IMG/VR virus record: IMGVR_UViG_3300041926_000003
Span: 1-39,074 of that record
From: a virus
Direction: 5' to 3' (one strand)
DNA length: 39,074 bases
Numbering within the stretch: the first letter of the stretch is position 1; each line of letters starts with the position of its first letter. The position numbers and the translations under genes were made by a program. The notes below the pieces were generated by a model. The model did not search any database. It was not told the DNA's origin and saw nothing but the letters and a program-made list of their open reading frames with translations. Below are positions 2,377 to 39,074 of the stretch, one piece after another.

Positions 2377-2554
2377 AAGCCCCGATATTCACCCGCCCCA
2401 CCTGCCCGACTCAGGGCAGCCGAGCGAGGAGCGGCGTCGGTTCATGAACGAGGGACCCCGATGCGTTGATTGTGGTTGCGCGTGGGCGTGCCACGACCGC
2501 CGAGACGCCTATTGCCGCCTGTGTTACGTCACCTGTAGCGGGGTAGTTGACTGA
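2369..2554 (+). CDS. Cys-rich zinc-ribbon-like protein, 61 aa
   Basis: GTG at 2369 lies 5 nt after AAGGAG (2358-2363) and overlaps the upstream stop, so it is preferred to the in-frame ATG at 2294. The C-terminal half carries CVDC, GCAWACH and CRLC plus a last Cys, giving at least six Cys and a His in 26 residues. That spacing suggests one or two zinc sites. The function is unknown. The stop overlaps the next start as TGATG. Confidence 0.6.
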   Translation: MLESPDIHPPHLPDSGQPSEERRRFMNEGPRCVDCGCAWACHDRRDAYCRLCYVTCSGVVD

Positions 2555-3366
2555 TGCCTGACCCCTTCTCCCCGCAACAGCTAGAGGCCGCAGCGAAGGT
2601 GATCCACGAGCACACGGTCTACCCCTCTGAGGGCGCGTGGTATTGCCGCTGCGACGGGTGGTGGTCGTGGATGCTCAACGAGCATCCGAAGCACGTTGCC
2701 GAGGTCGCTCTCACCGCCGCTGCGGCTCTCGCTGACCCAGTAGACCGACCGGACAGCGAAACGATCGAACAGGCGCAGCAGCTCGTCACCTACCTGACGT
2801 GCCCGTACTACACGCAGACAGGAACCAAGCAATGTGGCTCGGGCTGTCGCGACGAACCAGCGTGCATGACAAGTGGTCCGTGGGCAGACGAAGTGATCGA
2901 GGTGCTGACCAAGGTGGCCGATCTTGGCTCGGCTGACTCAGTAGACGTAGAAGGGGAGGGGCTGCGGTTCAACGACTTGCGCGAGGCAAACGTCACGCGT
3001 TGCCGTCGCTGGCACCCGAACTTCCTGAGCGGTGACGACGAGTGGACAAGTGCGGACTGGTCCAATGCGATGTGCGGCGAGGCAGGCGAGACGGCCAACG
3101 TGGTCAAGAAGCTGCGGCGCGGCGAGACTGGCACGGCTCCCGGTCCTGACGATCCGCCACGTGATGACCTCCTGTGCATGCTGGCGGACGAGCTGGCCGA
3201 CACAGTCACCTACGCCGACCTCCTGGCCGCGTTCTACGACATCGATCTCGGCGCGGCCATAGCGGACAAGTTCAACCGTGTGAGCGAGCGTCAAGGCTTT
3301 CCTGACCGGCTGTGCGCCCCTCCACCCAGCTCGGGGCTACCAAGTGAAACGGCGCACTGGGCGTGA
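2554..3366 (+). CDS. MazG-like pyrophosphohydrolase domain protein with extra N-terminal domain
   Basis: ATG at 2554 overlaps the preceding TGA (TGATG). The 270-residue product has two parts. Residues 1-60 contain a WYCRCDGWWS motif followed by a helix EHPKHVAEVALTAAAAL, a pattern I associate with actinophage proteins of unknown role. Residues 150-255 resemble MazG-like nucleotide pyrophosphohydrolases: GEAGE with E176 and E179, then DELADTVTYAD with E213 and D216, matching the ExxE...ExxD metal-binding pattern, and ending KFNRVSERQGFP. Such enzymes hydrolyse NTPs or (p)ppGpp-related nucleotides; the substrate here is unknown. A Cys-rich stretch links the two parts. Confidence 0.7.
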   Translation: MPDPFSPQQLEAAAKVIHEHTVYPSEGAWYCRCDGWWSWMLNEHPKHVAEVALTAAAALADPVDRPDSETIEQAQQLVTYLTCPYYTQTGTKQCGSGCRDEPACMTSGPWADEVIEVLTKVADLGSADSVDVEGEGLRFNDLREANVTRCRRWHPNFLSGDDEWTSADWSNAMCGEAGETANVVKKLRRGETGTAPGPDDPPRDDLLCMLADELADTVTYADLLAAFYDIDLGAAIADKFNRVSERQGFPDRLCAPPPSSGLPSETAHWA

Positions 3367-3682
3367 GACGCTGACCGAGCGCGAGCTACAGAACGCCGTC
3401 ATCGAATTGGCGCAGCTGCTCAAGTGGCGAGTTGCTCATTTCCGGCCAGCCAGAACGGCGCAGGGTTGGCGAACGGCAGTCGCTGGCGATGGAGTGGGCT
3501 TTCCCGATCTCGTCTTGGTACGTGACCGCCTGATCTTCGTCGAGCTCAAAAGTGCCAAGGGTCGACTCTCACCGGCTCAGCAGTGCTGGCTGGCCGATCT
3601 CGAGCACGACGCCGGCCAAGAGGTCCACATCTGGCGGCCATGCCATTGGTTGGACGGAACGATCGAGCAGATCTTGCGCTAA
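3344..3682 (+). CDS. VRR-NUC family PD-(D/E)XK nuclease
   Basis: GTG at 3344 overlaps the MazG-like gene by 23 nt. The 112-aa protein fits the VRR-NUC fold: an N-terminal helix with TERELQNAVIELAQ, then GFPDLVLVRDRLIFVELKSAKG with D55, E67 and K69 as the catalytic D...ExK set, then SPAQQCWLADLEHDAG and a short end helix. Stand-alone VRR-NUC proteins in phages act as structure-specific or nicking nucleases in replication, recombination or packaging. It is the last gene of the rightward early block and meets the leftward block tail to tail. Confidence 0.85.
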   Translation: MKRRTGRETLTERELQNAVIELAQLLKWRVAHFRPARTAQGWRTAVAGDGVGFPDLVLVRDRLIFVELKSAKGRLSPAQQCWLADLEHDAGQEVHIWRPCHWLDGTIEQILR

Positions 3683-3709: not shown

Positions 3710-3901
3710 CTAGACGACCTCGCGGCCAGTTCGCTTGGCCCACTCGATCACGTCCTCACGCCGCCATATGGGCATGGACGAGATGGTCAGAAACGGGTCG
3801 AGCAGCACGCCGCGCTTTCGCCATTGGGCGATGGTGTTGCGCTGTACGGAAAGCATGTCGGCCACTTCGTCGGGTCCGACCAGCTGCGTCACCAGTACCA
3901 C
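3710..3901 (-). CDS. Excisionase/MerR-like helix-turn-helix DNA-binding protein
   Basis: The GTG start at 3901 (reverse strand) is preceded by GAAGGA with 5 nt spacing. The 63-aa product begins MVLVTQLVGPDEVADML. It then has SVQRNTIAQWRKRGVL, the typical winged-HTH helix pair of excisionase/DNA-binding family proteins, and ends RREDVIEWAKRTGREVV. Proteins of this size act as excisionases, recombination directionality factors or small repressors. No integrase lies in the window, so a regulatory role is at least as likely. It is the last gene of a four-gene leftward operon and overlaps the upstream gene by 13 nt. Confidence 0.75.
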   Translation of the reverse strand: MVLVTQLVGPDEVADMLSVQRNTIAQWRKRGVLLDPFLTISSMPIWRREDVIEWAKRTGREVV

Positions 3902-4561: not shown

Positions 4562-4599
4562 TTCGTTCCCCTTGCTCAACGTGATCCGAGTCGACCACT

Positions 4600-4648
4600 G
4601 CTGTCATCAGAACATGACACGGTAGGGGATGTCAAGCAATCATGACAG
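4600..4648 (-). promoter_or_regulatory. Leftward promoter with TGTCA/TGACA operator-like dyads
   Basis: On the reverse strand TTGACA (forward TGTCAA, 4630-4635) is a perfect -35 box; TGTTCT or TCTGAT 15-18 nt downstream could serve as -10. A perfect inverted repeat TGTCAT-N6-ATGACA covers 4602-4619, and a second dyad TGTCA-N8-TGACA covers 4630-4647, overlapping the -35. Two dyads of the same half-site in a promoter are typical of a repressor-controlled leftward phage operon. The binding protein is unknown. Confidence 0.55.
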
Positions 4649-4737
4649 ATGATCCGACTGAACGTGCTGTGCCAAGAGCGCGCGCTCACCTGAACCAGCC
4701 GTCACGTCGCCAGCGCTGCCTGTCGGACTCTGCCAGC

Positions 4738-4756
4738 CGTGGCACGTCCTGCCACG
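4738..4756. repeat. Inverted repeat CGTGGCA-N5-TGCCACG
   Basis: A perfect 7-bp inverted repeat with a 5-nt spacer lies in the noncoding region. It could be an operator or a short hairpin. A second dyad, CGGAGC-N9-GCTCCG, lies at 4810-4830. Confidence 0.6.
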
Positions 4757-4842
4757 TGGTGTAAGTCCAGCACACCGCATGTGTATGGCGTAGACGTTCG
4801 TGATGGTGACGGAGCTGCTCCCTCGCTCCGACGTTTGCATGC

Positions 4843-4856
4843 TGGTGGGCCCACCA
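4843..4856. repeat. 14-bp perfect palindrome TGGTGGGCCCACCA
   Basis: The sequence is self-complementary without a spacer, a form more typical of a protein-binding site than of an RNA hairpin. It lies in the middle of the noncoding control region. Confidence 0.6.
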
Positions 4857-5067
4857 CGGCATCCCAAGCCCCTGACCTGCATCTTTGTCGCCTCAGCAAC
4901 CCCACCAAAGCCCATTTGGCCCTGCACTGAGAGTGGGTATGAGAGTGAAGCGTCATCGACCAGCACTTCTTCATAATTTTTCGGGACTAGGCCTAAGGCA
5001 CTCGCGGGTTGAGACCCAGCTCTACGAGGCGCAGCAATCTTTGATTGCGAGCACCCCAACCGCAGGG

Positions 5068-5096
5068 CGGGAGCGCCTTTGGCGCACTGTCTCCCG
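5068..5096. repeat. Nested hairpin in the noncoding region
   Basis: GCGCC-TTT-GGCGC (5073-5085) forms an inner 5-bp stem, and outer arms CGGGA(G) and (C)TCCCG at 5068-5073 and 5091-5096 can close around it with a short internal bulge. In RNA this would be a stable stem-loop. It has no U-tract after it, so it is not a clear terminator; a structured small RNA or DNA hairpin is possible. Confidence 0.5.
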
Positions 5097-5513
5097 AGGC
5101 GGGCTTCCTTCCGACCCCTCCCTCCACCGAACGTCCCCCGTAGCCGCCGTGAAAATTTTTGAATGAGGGATCACCAGGTTGGGTCGGGGCTTAAACCAGG
5201 GGGTCACGTAGGTGCTGACCGGCCGCGGGGATTCTCCTCGATGGGAGCGGTGCGTCTTACGTGGGGTTCCCCCCCGGGTCTTCCACAGCTTTTCGACAGA
5301 GCGCAACCAGGTGGGCGATTTGTCGCTCGGCCTTGGGTGGGAACTTCGACAGGGGCGGGGAGTTGTACCACTCCCTCTCGATCCGGTCTGCGTGGGTCAC
5401 TTGCCTTCTTTCGCCAGTCTCGGTATTCGTCCGCGATTGTCTGCGCGCGGGGTTGAAAAGTCAAGAGCTATCTGTCAGACTGATGGCGGTCCGCCAGACC
5501 ACGGGTTCAAGCG

Positions 5514-5548
5514 ATGCCCCCGATTTTCCTCCTCGGATGCGGGGGCAT
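5514..5548 (+). terminator. Hairpin before the structural operon, terminator-like
   Basis: ATGCCCCCG (5514-5522) and CGGGGGCAT (5540-5548) form a perfect 9-bp stem with a 17-nt loop, extendable by GCG/CGC across a one-base bulge. A U-tract is lacking, which is common for actinobacterial terminators. It lies 9 nt before the -35 box of the next promoter, so it probably insulates that promoter from upstream transcription. Confidence 0.5.
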
Positions 5549-5557
5549 TCGCATGTA

Positions 5558-5592
5558 TTGACTCCTGTCACCCAACGGGTTACAGTGGCGGC
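5558..5592 (+). promoter_or_regulatory. Leaderless promoter P1 with palindromic operator, start of structural block
   Basis: TTGACT (5558-5563), a 17-nt spacer and TACAGT (5581-5586) form a near-consensus housekeeping promoter, and only 6 nt separate the -10 from the ATG at 5593. Transcription would start at or next to the ATG, giving a leaderless mRNA. The palindrome GTCACCC-AAC-GGGTTAC (5567-5583, one mismatch) overlaps the -10. Near-identical sites precede the genes at 25400 and 37685. Confidence 0.8.
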
Positions 5593-5946
5593 ATGAGCCA
5601 ACAGAGCATCGCTTCGGTAGCACGCCAGGTTCTCGCCCTTGCCGGGATCGTGATGGGAGCACTGACCCAGTCGGTCACCGCGCTGCATCTGCCGGTGGCC
5701 TTCTCGACCATCATCGCCGCGGGTGGCGCACTGCTCCTGGCCGTCGAGCAGTACGTGGCCGACCCCTCGACCGGCAACGCGTCGGCCGTCAACACCGCGG
5801 TGACCACGGCTGTGCCGGTGCTCGGTCATGCCGAAGCCGACGCCGAGGCGTTCATCGCCAAGATCCGGGCCGCCCTCAACACTCCGACCGTGCCGCCGAC
5901 GACCGTCAACACACAGGTCCCGGTTATCGTTCCGCCGGCTGGGTAA
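5593..5946 (+). CDS. Small membrane protein with two hydrophobic segments, holin-like
   Basis: ATG at 5593 is set by the leaderless promoter; no Shine-Dalgarno sequence is present. The 117-aa product has hydrophobic segments at about residues 8-26 (ARQVLALAGIVMGALTQSV) and 32-54 (VAFSTIIAAGGALLLAVEQY). A soluble helix EADAEAFIAKIRAAL and a Pro/Thr/Val-rich tail follow. Two close membrane segments and a short polar N-terminus are compatible with a holin, but it lies far from the lysin gene, at the head of the structural operon. A virion-associated membrane protein is the alternative. Confidence 0.6.
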   Translation: MSQQSIASVARQVLALAGIVMGALTQSVTALHLPVAFSTIIAAGGALLLAVEQYVADPSTGNASAVNTAVTTAVPVLGHAEADAEAFIAKIRAALNTPTVPPTTVNTQVPVIVPPAG

Positions 5947-6165: not shown

Positions 6166-6717
6166 ATGACCGACACCGGAGGCAGCGATGACCTCATCAG
6201 CCAACTACAGCACGTCCTCGACGAGAAGGGCATCGCCGTCGACGTCGCCTCCTTCTTGGCCCCTCAGCCATCCGATGCTGCCCCGACAGAGGATGTCCCC
6301 GTGGAAGCACCTGCTGAGGTTCCTGCTCCGGACCCTACGGTAACGGAGCCATCCGCCTCGTCCACGACGGACCCTGGCTCCTCGGAGCCATCTGCACCCG
6401 CCACGGAATCGACGCCCGACTCTGCGACTGCGCCTACTTCCCCGGTGGTCGCGACTGGAATCGCGGCAGTTGAGGAACTGAAGACCCGCTTCCCGGTCGC
6501 CTCGACCGTCGCGCCGGGCCAGGCCACCATCGACAGCACGGTCACCCAGGGCAACCGGGTCACCACCCAAGGCGCTATCACGCCGAACAACCCGCTCAAG
6601 GTGCTGACGGACCGGGTGGAGGACCACTTCAACGAGCTGTCCAAGGTGGTTTCCGACATCGAGGCAATCTTGGACCGGCTCAAGACCCTGACGAATTCGA
6701 TCGGCGTCGGCCTGTAG
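6166..6717 (+). CDS. Hypothetical Pro/Ser/Thr-rich 183-aa protein
   Basis: ATG at 6166 has GAAAGGA 5 nt upstream. Residues 1-30 are helical. Residues 35-95 are a low-complexity linker of Ala, Pro, Ser, Thr and Glu. The C-terminal third contains VEDHFNELSKVVSDIEAIL and ends in a helix with KTLTNSIGVGL, suggesting a coiled coil. The design (short head, long disordered linker, coiled coil) fits a virion accessory or membrane-adaptor protein. No family is recognised. Confidence 0.65.
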   Translation: MTDTGGSDDLISQLQHVLDEKGIAVDVASFLAPQPSDAAPTEDVPVEAPAEVPAPDPTVTEPSASSTTDPGSSEPSAPATESTPDSATAPTSPVVATGIAAVEELKTRFPVASTVAPGQATIDSTVTQGNRVTTQGAITPNNPLKVLTDRVEDHFNELSKVVSDIEAILDRLKTLTNSIGVGL

Positions 6718-7080: not shown

Positions 7081-7346
7081 CCGACGACCCGGTCAGTGTC
7101 CTCGAGCGCGAGCAGATAGCGGCGGCCATCGAGACCTCGCAGGACAACGCGCTGCGCCGGGCCATGGTCAACCCCAACGTCGCCACGTTCCTGGCCACAG
7201 TCCCGAACGGCGGCATCAAGACCAACGGGGACAACCACTGGGTGGTCACCCTCGTGGTGGCCTGGGAGGACCGGGGCGAAGTCACCCGCATCATCGACAC
7301 CATCCCCATGAACCTCCTCGTCACGATCGTCAAGCCCGATGACTGA
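7041..7346 (+). CDS. Hypothetical 101-aa protein upstream of the terminase genes
   Basis: I choose GTG at 7041, giving a 40-nt overlap with the upstream gene; the same frame is open back to 6771, but that part is Gly/Pro-rich and looks like a shadow. The product has an acidic helical start (DAFLDGAADFELADD), the helix EREQIAAAIETSQDNALRRAM, and a beta-rich end (HWVVTLVVAWEDRGEVTRII). Its stop overlaps the next ATG by 8 nt. No family is recognised. Confidence 0.55.
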   Translation: MDAFLDGAADFELADDPVSVLEREQIAAAIETSQDNALRRAMVNPNVATFLATVPNGGIKTNGDNHWVVTLVVAWEDRGEVTRIIDTIPMNLLVTIVKPDD

Positions 7347-7803
7347 CCGCACGGCCCTGATGCGCGACCTGGACCCGCTGCACCTGGTCGAGATCACCCG
7401 GCGGCTCATCCGTGTCGGGGTGCCCCCGACCGCCATAGCCAACGCCTTCGACCTCGACCCCGGCCCGATCAAGGCGGTGGCGCGCAACATGCGGCGCGAG
7501 TCCTACGGCACGGCCGAGCTCTCCGAAGCCCACGCCTTCTTGACCTGGCTGGCCTACGAGGAACTGCTCAACCTCATCCAGCACGGCTCACCCGAGATCA
7601 AGCTCAAGGCGGCCATGCAGATACAGTCCAAGGCCATGGCCATCTCGGCGCGCCAGACGCCCGAAGAGGTGATCCAGGCCCGCGCCGACTTCGGCCAGTT
7701 GGTCGAGGCGTTCGAGGTGTCAGAAGAAGAACTCGAACGCGAGGCCGAGGAGTACGAGTCGCAACGGGCCGAGGTGGTGCCGGGCGCTGAAGACGAAGAA
7801 TGA
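7339..7803 (+). CDS. Probable terminase small subunit
   Basis: ATG at 7339 overlaps the preceding stop, and its own stop overlaps the large terminase ATG. The 154-aa protein has an N-terminal helical region with LVEITRRLIRVGVPPTAIANAFDLDPGPIKAVARN, which reads as a helix-turn-helix when taken in two parts (residues about 16-50). A central helical segment and a very acidic C-terminus (SEEELEREAEEYES) follow. Size, HTH start and position directly before TerL indicate the DNA-recognising small terminase subunit. The sequence alone is too divergent to be certain. Confidence 0.65.
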   Translation: MTDRTALMRDLDPLHLVEITRRLIRVGVPPTAIANAFDLDPGPIKAVARNMRRESYGTAELSEAHAFLTWLAYEELLNLIQHGSPEIKLKAAMQIQSKAMAISARQTPEEVIQARADFGQLVEAFEVSEEELEREAEEYESQRAEVVPGAEDEE

Positions 7804-9476
7804 GCCGGCGCAGGCGGCTGAACCTGACCCCTTGGCTCAGGACGCTGACCATCAAGGACAAGGACGCCAAGCTCAGCCAGTTCGACCCCAACTGGGCCCA
7901 GAAGCTCTTCATCAAAGAGGTGGAGCGCCAGCACGCGGCGGGCAAGCCGATCCGCATCATCATCTTGAAGGGTCGCCAAATGGGCCTCTCCACGGTGACC
8001 GAGGGCCTGCTCTTCGTGCTCTGCTTCCTCTTCCCCGGCTTCAACGCCCTGGTGCTGTCCAAGGACCGAGAGGGGTCCGAGACCATCTTCGAGATGGCCA
8101 AGCTCATGTGGGAGACCTGGCGCTTCAAGGCCCTCTTCACGACCACCCGCAAGTCCACGCGGCGTTTGAGCTGGGCCGAGACGCTGTCCAACTTCCGGGT
8201 TGCTACCGCCAAGGGTGAGCACGTCGGCCGGGGGGCGACGATCCAGGGTGTCCACGGCTCGGAGGTCGCGTTCTGGGAGAACGCCGAGGAGCTCATGCCC
8301 CCGCTCAACGAGGCGGTCCCGATGCAGCCCGGCACCATCATCGTCTTGGAGTCGACGGCGAATGGGGTGGGGGGGTTCTTCTACGACACCTGGATGGCGG
8401 CCGAGCGGGGTGAGTCGGACTACGTGCCCATGTTCTTCGCCTGGTGGAAGCACCCCGAGTACCAGGTCAAGCGGCACAACCTGACCGAGCGCACGCTGAA
8501 CAACAAAGAGCGGACGCTGATGGAGCGCTACGGCCTGACCCTCAACCAGCTGGCCTGGCGCAGGCGCAAGATCCGCACCAACAACTGGACCGAGGACAAG
8601 TTCGACGAGGAGTACCCGGTCAGCCCAGACGTGGCGTTCCTCTCGACGGGCCGTAACGTGTTCGACCTCGAAGCGTTGCGCGACTGTTACGTGGCCCCCG
8701 GCGACACGTTGCCCGACGGGCGGAGAATGGGAGTATCGCGCGGTCGGCTTCTTAACCTCAACGGCAAGCTCACCTTCTCCGAGGACCGCACCGGCGAGTT
8801 GTCGGTCTACTTCAAACCCAATCCAAGGCTGAAGATCGAGTACGTGGTGGCCGCCGACCCCGCCCGCTCACTCGACGGGGACCCGTGCTGCATCCAGGTG
8901 CTACGCCGCGACACGCTCGAACAGGTGGCGGTGTGGCATGGCTGGGCGTCTCACAACGACTTCGCGGAGCACATCGCCAACCTGGCCGCCTGGTACAACG
9001 AAGCCCTGGTCAACTGCGAGATGGAGGGCGGGGGGCTGGGCGTGATCGGGGTGCTCCAACACCTGCGCGTGCCGAACCTGTGGAAATGGAGATTGCCGGA
9101 CAGGCCCCTGCACAAGCGGGGCAACGTCTACGGCTGGTCGACCAACTCAAAGTCCAAAGGCTGGGCCATGGGCCAGCTCATGCACTACGTGGGCAAGCGC
9201 TCACTCACCATCCACGACCCGCTGACCTACCACGAGATGCGCGAGTACATCAACATCGACGGCGTCGAGATGGGACCGGCATCGAACGACGGCAACGACG
9301 ACAGTGTCATGGCCCTCATGATTGCTTTGATTACAACAATAACTGAGGATCCGGTCAATTTCGAGCAGATCTACGGCTACGGCCAGAAACCGCCGGGCGG
9401 GGTGGAACCGCCAAGAGACAACTACGACGCGGTAGCGTTGGACGCCATGGCAGGCACCTACGGCGAGCTGGACTGA
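7800..9476 (+). CDS. terL: Terminase large subunit (packaging ATPase/nuclease)
   Basis: The 558-aa protein has the two TerL domains. ATPase: GRQMGLST at residues 58-65 is the Walker A-like motif, HGSEVAFWENAEE around 152-164 is the Walker B with the catalytic acidic pair region, and VLESTANG around 182-189 is the coupling motif. RNase H-like nuclease: AADPA with D353, CEMEGGG around 406-412, and NDGNDDSVMAL with D500/D501. It threads DNA into the procapsid through the portal and cuts it. ATG at 7800 overlaps the small subunit's stop (ATGA). The length is normal for the family. Confidence 0.95.
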   Translation: MSRRRRLNLTPWLRTLTIKDKDAKLSQFDPNWAQKLFIKEVERQHAAGKPIRIIILKGRQMGLSTVTEGLLFVLCFLFPGFNALVLSKDREGSETIFEMAKLMWETWRFKALFTTTRKSTRRLSWAETLSNFRVATAKGEHVGRGATIQGVHGSEVAFWENAEELMPPLNEAVPMQPGTIIVLESTANGVGGFFYDTWMAAERGESDYVPMFFAWWKHPEYQVKRHNLTERTLNNKERTLMERYGLTLNQLAWRRRKIRTNNWTEDKFDEEYPVSPDVAFLSTGRNVFDLEALRDCYVAPGDTLPDGRRMGVSRGRLLNLNGKLTFSEDRTGELSVYFKPNPRLKIEYVVAADPARSLDGDPCCIQVLRRDTLEQVAVWHGWASHNDFAEHIANLAAWYNEALVNCEMEGGGLGVIGVLQHLRVPNLWKWRLPDRPLHKRGNVYGWSTNSKSKGWAMGQLMHYVGKRSLTIHDPLTYHEMREYINIDGVEMGPASNDGNDDSVMALMIALITTITEDPVNFEQIYGYGQKPPGGVEPPRDNYDAVALDAMAGTYGELD

Positions 9477-33152: not shown

Positions 33153-33211
33153 GAATCCACCTCCCGAGCCTCCCGCACACCGAGACCACCAAGGAGTACT
33201 CCCGCAAGTGA
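33149..33211 (+). pseudogene. Relic N-terminus of a glycosyltransferase gene (20 codons)
   Basis: ATG at 33149 is coupled to the upstream stop (ATGA) and reads [20 protein letters not shown] to TGA 33209. It aligns without gaps to residues 4-21 of the following glycosyltransferase ([18 protein letters not shown]), with 12 of 18 residues identical, but its codons are GC-rich like the rest of the phage. The stop overlaps the GTG of the next gene (GTGA). It looks like the surviving start of an original phage glycosyltransferase, now perhaps serving as a translational leader. Confidence 0.6.
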
Positions 33212-34272
33212 CCCCGTTTCGTTTTCATATCCCTGGATTACCTCATACGCAGACCACAAAGGCTTACTCCTGGGATGCATTTAGCGAAAAGATGCGGAAG
33301 TTCGCTGACCAGATGACCAGCCTTGGCCATGAGGTTTACCTGTACGGAGGCGAGCACAATGAGGCCGCCTGCGTTGAGAACGTCACGGTAATCTCGGAGC
33401 AGGAACAGGAGGACTTCTTTGGGACTAACCGGGTGCCCGTCTTTGGCTCTGAGTTGCCGGAGTGGAAGCTGTTCAACGAGCGCTGCATTGACGCCATTTC
33501 CACACGTTACGCGGCGACGGACTTTCTCTGTCTGACCGGGGGCCTGGCCCACAAACCCATTTCGGATGCCTTTCCTGAAATGACTGCTTGTGAGCAAGGC
33601 GTCGGTTATGAGGGGGTGTTTACCCGATTTCGGATCTTCGAGAGCTATGCCTGGATGCATACCATTTATGGGGCAACAATGGGAGCCGGTGCCGCCGATG
33701 GGAACTTTTACGATGATGTGATCCCAGGGAGCTTTGAGGTAGAGGACTTCCCCATGGGCGCCGGTGAAGGTGGATACCTGCTCTACCTGGGCAGGCTTAC
33801 GGCGCGCAAGGGCTTGCAGGTCGTAGCAGATGTGATCAAGCGAACCGGGCTTGATTTAGTCGTGGCGGGAGTCGGGGACGCCGAGCACCTTCTGCCGGCG
33901 ACGGCGGACTTCAGGGGCACGGTGTTCGCCAAGGAGCGGGCCGAGCTGATGGGACACGCGCGGGCATTGATATGTCCGACGATCTATGTGGAACCTTTCG
34001 GATGTGTCGCGGCGGAAGCTCAAATGTGTGGCACCCCCGTCATAACTGTTCCTTGGGGCGGGTTTACCGAAACGGTCGAAGGGGGCAAGACTGGGTTTCA
34101 CTGTCATACCCTGGCCGACTTCTGCCGCGCTGCTGAGCAGGCCGAGTCCCTTGATCGTTCTTACATCCGTGAGCGTGCCGTAGAGCTGTATTCAACTGAC
34201 ACGGTGAAATACCAGTATGAAGACTATTTCCGGCGTCTGGCCGGCCTTCGGGGCGAAGGATGGTACGCCTGA
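33208..34272 (+). CDS. GT4-type glycosyltransferase, probably acquired
   Basis: GTG at 33208 overlaps the preceding TGA. The 354-aa protein is a GT-B enzyme of the GT4 group. The N-terminal Rossmann half begins [20 protein letters not shown] and includes [15 protein letters not shown]. The C-terminal half has [19 protein letters not shown] and [20 protein letters not shown], containing the E262-x7-E270 motif that contacts the nucleotide-sugar. It would transfer a sugar to phage DNA, virion or host surface glycan. Codon third positions are visibly richer in A/T than in flanking genes, which indicates recent acquisition. Confidence 0.88.
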
Positions 34273-38594: not shown

Positions 38595-39074
38595 CCGATT
38601 TCACGAAGGTATTTAAGGACACCCCACTGGCCAAAGGCAGACACAGCGCCGGTTCGGGCGAGGCGTGCATCATGGAGAAGGTTTCCATCTTGTGGGCACT
38701 CAACACGGGCCAGGACGTGGCTGACGTGTTCAGTGATCTGCCGCCGTGCACCAACGCGTTCGTGGCGATCAACGCCCAGCGGATCAACGACCTGATGAGC
38801 GGCGGCGAGCGACAGAAGCTCAACGCCATGATCCCGCGCCTGCTGCGGGCACGCCGGACCGATTCCGACCACCGCATCAACACGCAGCTGGCGATCTGGG
38901 CAGCACGCAAGGTGCTGCATCTGGTCGAGCCGAAGCACATGGCCAAGGCCGTTGCAGCGATCGAATCCGCTGAGGCGTGGTTGGAGAATCCATGCGAGGA
39001 GACGCGCACCGCCGCCTACGCCGCCGCCGCCGCCGCCACCTACGCCGACGCCGCCGCCGCCGCCGCCTCCACCT
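38591..39074 (+). CDS. Ala-rich repeat-tail (Imm5-like) protein, N-terminal part
   Basis: ATG at 38591 has GGAGGAG 3-9 nt upstream. The visible 161 residues run off the window end and continue at position 1. The first 110 residues are a globular domain with SGEACIMEKVSILWAL, LPPCTNAFVAINAQRINDLM and LNAMIPRLLRARRTDSDHRI, a layout I know from actinophage proteins of unknown function. Residues 115-140 (IWAARKVLHLVEPKHMAKAV, AIESAEAWLENP) resemble Imm5-like putative immunity proteins. The Ala/Thr/Tyr/Asp repeat tail follows. It directly follows the ERF gene. Confidence 0.75.
   Translation, partial: MTDFTKVFKDTPLAKGRHSAGSGEACIMEKVSILWALNTGQDVADVFSDLPPCTNAFVAINAQRINDLMSGGERQKLNAMIPRLLRARRTDSDHRINTQLAIWAARKVLHLVEPKHMAKAVAAIESAEAWLENPCEETRTAAYAAAAAATYADAAAAAAST
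39010..39074 (+). repeat. GCC-rich tandem repeat, right end
   Basis: The Ala-codon array begins after ACG-CGC-ACC and runs to the window end with the same triplet set as the left end. The stretch TAC-(GCC)6-ACC-TAC-GCC is shared with positions 2-31. Confidence 0.85.

Follow-up and report, generated by a model that had tools for sequence, protein, structure and literature searches.

The window, which means the whole 39,074-base record of an uncultured phage, holds a gene-free stretch (4600-5557) between divergent transcription units, flanked by leftward genes ending near 4580 and by a rightward gene from 5593. Both ends of the record break within one and the same alanine-codon repeat (GCC/TAC, at 1-200 and 39015-39074), a probable assembly break point, and the genome is therefore probably near-complete and circular in assembly. 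We asked what the gene-free stretch does.

One conserved block in the gene-free region

The first-pass annotation of this DNA had drawn attention to dyads, and those at 4602-4619, 4630-4647, 4738-4756, 4810-4830, 4843-4856, 5068-5096 and 5514-5548 were all recovered by a dyad search, together with four further ones at 4676, 5034, 5358 and 5484; both of the A/T tracts that it had listed are present as well. The excess over chance was mild, with 10 dyads having arms of at least 6 against 5.0 ± 2.1 in 200 dinucleotide shuffles (P 0.03). Among the stretches folded, the hairpin at 5514 gave the strongest fold and was alone in being clearly unusual (DNA fold z -3.95), the dyads at 5068 (z -0.92) and 4810 (z -0.45) being ordinary. 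The dyads are thus real, but most of those listed are not among the conserved parts of the region.

Relatives were collected by searches with the large terminase, which gave six, and with capsid, terminase and portal proteins, which gave more. Comparing their DNA for conserved blocks, a check that the annotation had proposed, revealed a single block, 4906-4991, common to the window, G002, G003, G005 and G007 and absent from its list. We then compared the 20 stop-to-stop frames of at least 30 amino acids in 4580-5592 with 19 other records. Only two matches fell below E 1e-3; both were to G005, and they represent the two strands of one conserved stretch. The conserved frame in homologues that the annotation had named as the refuting finding was thus sought and not seen. 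Since no frame is conserved and the spacing between conserved boxes shifts by 1-2 nt among records (24, 26, 25, 24, 24), the element is not coding, and a coding gene in the region was ruled out. A structured RNA at the core was likewise ruled out, as the element does not fold there (z +0.41). The window gave no Rfam match and no tRNA, and the region matched nothing among annotated phages and plasmids.

A multi-part element upstream of the terminase genes

Around this block lies an element of about 4810-4982 whose parts follow a set order: a pyrimidine tract, the sequence CCxTTTGGCCC, a core some 30 nt further on and an A/T tract. In the window, the pyrimidine tract CGGAGCTGCTCCCTCGCTCCG (4810-4830, plus strand) is the local version of GGCTCCCTCCCTCC, the aligned upstream motif of the relatives. 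It is followed on the same strand by the box GCCCATTTGGCCC (4910-4922), invariant in five aligned records, and by the conserved core GTGAAGCGTCATCGACC (4945-4961), which has imperfect dyad symmetry and is the putative zone of terminase cleavage. The tract ATAATTTTT (4973-4981), an A/T run in the relatives too, stands just 3' of the core.

Diverged copies in further family members were sought by a profile search and then by motif searches. These brought the records with the element to 14; it lies ahead of terL and is directed toward it, across diverged terminases. Twelve of the 14 carry TTTGGCCC (the window, G002, G003, G005, G007, G018, G019, G009, G023, G022, G027 and G024), on the coding strand once in 10 of these 12 and twice in the window and G002; G025 and G026 have the form CCAATGGTCCCC. 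The pyrimidine tract, GCTCCCTCxCTCC, stands roughly 60-110 nt upstream in most element-bearing records and is not evident in four of the 14 (G023, G022, G027, G024). At the place of the A/T tract, 13 of the 14 show at least five A/T letters in a row, and A+T peaks at 0.55 after the core. A genome scan for box plus core returned 116 stretches, of which the 80 listed resembled background.

The gene context is fixed in order and variable in distance. Where a record holds both, the element lies about 2.5 kb to about 10 kb from the terminase genes (in G003 across the closure); to the putative small terminase gene it is 2.4 kb in the window and about 10 kb in G003. Genes for tail fibres, glycosyltransferases and methyltransferases may sit in between. 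Glycosyltransferase and collagen-like tail-fibre genes also occur at 33208-34272 of the window and in relatives, before or after the structural genes depending on the relative. The large terminase gene (7800-9476, plus strand) matches phrog_2 at E 1e-30. The adjoining frame (7339-7803, plus strand) is probably the small terminase gene: its product is all helical with an N-terminal HTH and is conserved in relatives; it gave a weak structure model (pLDDT 59), no family match and no useful PDB sequence match. Recombination genes are exchanged while the element stays: ERF occurs in the window, G002, G003 and G007, with VRR-NUC also in the first three, while G009 has a RecT-like protein and YqaJ, G018 a RecT-like protein and G019 methylases. 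Elsewhere in the window, the protein encoded at 2554-3366 has a weak MazG-like match below Pfam's cut-off.

A gene for an HTH_17-type DNA-binding protein with excisionase-like matches lies upstream of the element (3710-3901, minus strand). Leftward homologues occupy the same side in G007, G018, G019, G009 and G023 and lie near contig ends in G012 and G013; none was found upstream of the element in G002, G003 and G005. An intergenic dyad core near such a small gene is what the attP of a temperate phage could look like. However, no tyrosine or serine recombinase was detected in the 14 records, in searches whose positive controls matched; with the integrase missing, attP is contradicted and extremely unlikely.

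Contigs of relatives end inside the element

The packaging site that the first-pass annotation had offered as one option gained support from where the contigs of relatives end. The 35,362-bp contig G012 has at its right end the pyrimidine tract, CCCATTTGGCCC...GTAGAGAAG, closes with ...GTGTAGAGAAG and begins with GTCTTTAAAACG. Contigs of two other samples, identical in sequence to G012 over the part compared, start at the same base. Among the 39 contig starts examined, six begin with GTCTT, namely the three of the G012 type, G439, G440 and G017, and GTCTT[TG]A starts contigs of four lineages at the same bases beside the core. These four lineages have no mutual blastn match in their first ~300 nt, so the shared start does not reflect simple overall similarity.

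Scanning for the pyrimidine tract returned 14 stretches, six of them in records of the family, G432 included. This contig (37,396 bp; terminase 49% identical) also has both ends inside the element: the right end is at AGAGAGG and the left end starts with AGAGAGG, a 7-nt repeat. Counted from the start of TTTGGCCC, the right ends of G012 and G432 fall at 30 and 32 nt, a place equivalent to the core, and the TC[CAG]AC core, conserved elsewhere, is absent beside both ends of both contigs. The gap in G012 is what end repair would leave after removing a 3' overhang, whereas the 7-nt repeat of G432 fits a filled 5' overhang better; polishing enzymes degrade 3' overhangs and fill 5' overhangs (PMC6029569, section 13). 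A contig spanning the G012 junction was looked for and none was found.

Other records assemble across the core. While G012 and G432 are linear with both ends at the element, G003, G018 and G019 close as circles over it, with overlaps of 111, 127 and 99 nt, and each of the window, G007 and G009 has its ends in a shared repeat elsewhere, leaving the core internal. Such assemblies would be compatible with intracellular concatemers, which are no proof of a terminus. Support for genome ends at the element comes from relatives (both ends in G012 and G432, the left end in G017, G439 and G440), as ends of contigs rather than of reads. Transferred from these five to the window by spacing and alignment, the predicted termini of the virion genome lie within 4944-4975, the right one at about 4944-4950 and the left one at about 4965-4975.

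A probable cos-like packaging terminus

Taken together, these data suggest that the region combines control functions with a packaging junction that separates leftward regulatory from rightward late genes in a tailed phage with no integrase detected, and that its central element is probably a cos-like packaging terminus. The ends of the contigs would then be virion ends made by the terminase, and for the window phage a terminus, by homology with its relatives, is the best reading. The terminase would most likely recognise the multi-part sequence and cleave concatemers at about 4944-4975, within the core or next to it. The left end of the virion genome would lie immediately right of the core, followed by the terminase and structural genes; past the closure, the remaining genes would lead up to the core from its left side, where the right end would lie. 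The element behaves like a cos site and is best read as such, short of being filed as a proven one.

The cos site of lambda is a multi-part site with a cleavage core. Like the cos sites of lambda and HK97, which span less than 200 bp upstream of the terminase genes, the element has several parts, and genome ends would fall in a core with imperfect dyad symmetry. It differs from them in the 2.4-10 kb and the variable genes that separate it from the terminase genes, in a TerL nearest to headful enzymes, and in that cleavage and overhang are putative here. We know of no sequence similarity between the element and either cos site. The kind of site is already known; the element itself is new to the literature searched, in which we found no description of it. 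For HK97, cos is presented in PMC10359639 as terminase signal and cleavage site.

Several observations speak against a cos-like terminus: the affiliation of TerL with a headful type, the records that assemble across the core, the G432 repeat, which fits a filled 5' overhang better than a lost 3' one, and the 2.4-10 kb between the element and the putative small terminase gene. TerL matches 262 phage records, all at less than 60% identity and mostly Vibrio phages, with 933W-like Stx phages among the best 30 of the 262; its best PDB profile match is T4 gp17. Terminases of the 933W type are described as headful in PMC6029569 and PMC7317114; the former also lists, among genomes standardised by peaks or valleys in coverage, four whose best hits were of the 933W type.

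The element could accordingly be a pac site, where the first cut is fixed and later cuts follow by headful, as the kinship of TerL to 933W-type enzymes and the records closing as circles would allow. Under that scheme only the first end is fixed and later ones vary, yet the right end is fixed as well as the left in G012 and G432, at equivalent places. Moreover, PMC6029569 places pac sites commonly within or close to the small terminase gene, a usual rather than strictly defining property, and the element is 2.4-10 kb away from that gene. The preferred-start pac of Mecenats66 (PMC9503643) likewise pairs a fixed packaging start with a TerL having headful relatives, and differs from our case in the right end, which is also fixed in G012 and G432. 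We consider a pac site quite improbable.

For an uncultured family that has no close isolate, a cos-like terminus would fix where the genome starts, supply a terminase target that can be tested and allow the genomes to be oriented. There is also a testable conflict between a 933W-like large terminase and contigs that end like unit-length cos genomes. More generally, contig ends common to several lineages can indicate virion termini without reads.

DnaA-box-like motifs around the core

DnaA-dependent origins, such as oriC and plasmid origins, have an A/T-rich stretch and DnaA boxes. Here, A+T peaks directly after the core, as an unwinding stretch would, and two DnaA-box-like 9-mers, TCTTCCACA and TTTTCGACA, each with one mismatch, lie at 5279-5298 (plus strand). 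We weighed whether the element is a replication origin, with host DnaA or a protein of the phage opening it at these DnaA-like boxes beside the A/T tract. We counted 9-mers within one mismatch of TT[AGT]TCCACA from -350 to +450 of the core in the 14 records, and found 13 against 2.5 expected, spread over 10 of the 14; about 2 and 1 of 1000 letter permutations reached 13 such 9-mers or 10 records, respectively. As the motif had first been noticed in G001, G002 and G003, the count was repeated leaving out G002, G003 and overlaps with the core (G001 was never in the set), and still gave 8 against 2.2 expected (P 0.002).

Stand-alone proteins matching the DnaA box-binding domain (DnaA_C, PF08299) were found in four of 21 records, G002, G007 and the G021/G023 strain pair, this pair alone passing Pfam's cut-off. 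They are small and lack the ATPase part (G023 6246-6440, L256; G002 1128-1307, L257; G007 7514-7645, L258), and in these three records their genes belong to the early region, on the upstream side of the element. No initiator was recognised among the window genes scanned, which would fit dependence on the host, and a primase-like protein appeared in G002 only (1 of 21 records).

Against an origin, the 9-mers, although enriched, are few per record, single or paired and variably placed, and neither the window nor most of the 21 records searched has a DnaA_C protein. The GC-skew test that the first-pass annotation had suggested turned out negative, with no switch at the element in seven near-complete records; the origin that it had proposed keeps some support from the DnaA-like boxes and the A/T tract. 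Contig breaks at the element would have to be put down to replication intermediates or nicks, which we regard as unlikely, and an origin gives no reason to expect full-length contigs with both ends in the core; an origin in place of a terminus is, on balance, also unlikely. Because the core reads ATCCAC in most records, the DnaA-like boxes could instead be terminase-binding repeats. A dual role, as packaging terminus and origin, with a DnaA-box code that controls origin firing beside the cut site, is a tentative and rather doubtful proposal, and the same holds for the reading of that code by host DnaA or by the stand-alone proteins of G002, G007 and G023. If true, it would tie replication to packaging at one locus.

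Regulatory signals on either side of the element

The remainder of the region would be regulatory: a leftward promoter and its two operators on one side, and on the other a leaderless late promoter preceded by a short, terminated leader. The operator-like dyads TGTCATCAGAACATGACA (4602-4619) and TGTCAAGCAATCATGACA (4630-4647) are the sole TGTCA-N8-TGACA matches in the window and both are exact; two or more matches with at most one mismatch arose in 19 of 100 shuffles. Read leftward, the first half of the 4630 dyad is TTGACA, by eye a candidate -35 box of the leftward unit, and the pair more likely belongs to this candidate leftward promoter, overlapping it.

With divergent promoters, an operator pair, a leader and a hairpin all in place, the region might be purely regulatory, with no part in packaging or origin function. 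But the block with the highest conservation is several hundred nt away from the promoters, does not fold (z +0.41) and coincides with the contig ends of relatives, which leaves a solely regulatory role very unlikely.

Beyond the element, the stretch 5450-5593 consists of a leader hairpin followed by a leaderless late promoter. The late leader starts with GTCAAGAGC (5454-5468, plus strand), before which relatives have TANNNT. In seven of 20 records TANNNTGTCAA occurs once, always downstream of the element; the window matches its GTCAA half only and is without TANNNT. A terminator-like hairpin with a 9-bp stem follows (5514-5548, plus strand, the strongest fold noted above), and comparable hairpins exist in relatives. 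Next comes the predicted rightward promoter TTGACT-17-TACAGT (5558-5592, plus strand), whose -10 box is 6 nt before the ATG at 5593; from this spacing, 5593 is a candidate leaderless start. The records with TANNNTGTCAA continue into a hairpin leader, several with a promoter whose -10 box is about 6 nt before the start codon.

TANNNT and the leaderless promoters are the only pointers to a host, and would suggest an actinobacterium. A search with the capsid protein through 396 genomes belonging to the same phylum as a Mycolicibacterium genome yielded one weak match of 22% identity (G419 contig 167, 3244-4047; L254).

The small RNA that the first-pass annotation had considered for the region at large is plausible in one place, as a small terminated RNA or leader at 5460-5548. 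The hairpin leader with its late promoter may represent a small RNA or a late leader subject to attenuation; the alignments diverged too far to give a usable covariation signal. The arrangement is seen at 5454-5593 of the window, 3480-3620 of G002 and 1223-1400 of G022, and G002 and G022 share 23 identical bases, GGGTTCCATTTGTCGCGCCGATG, before the -10 box despite strongly different terminases.
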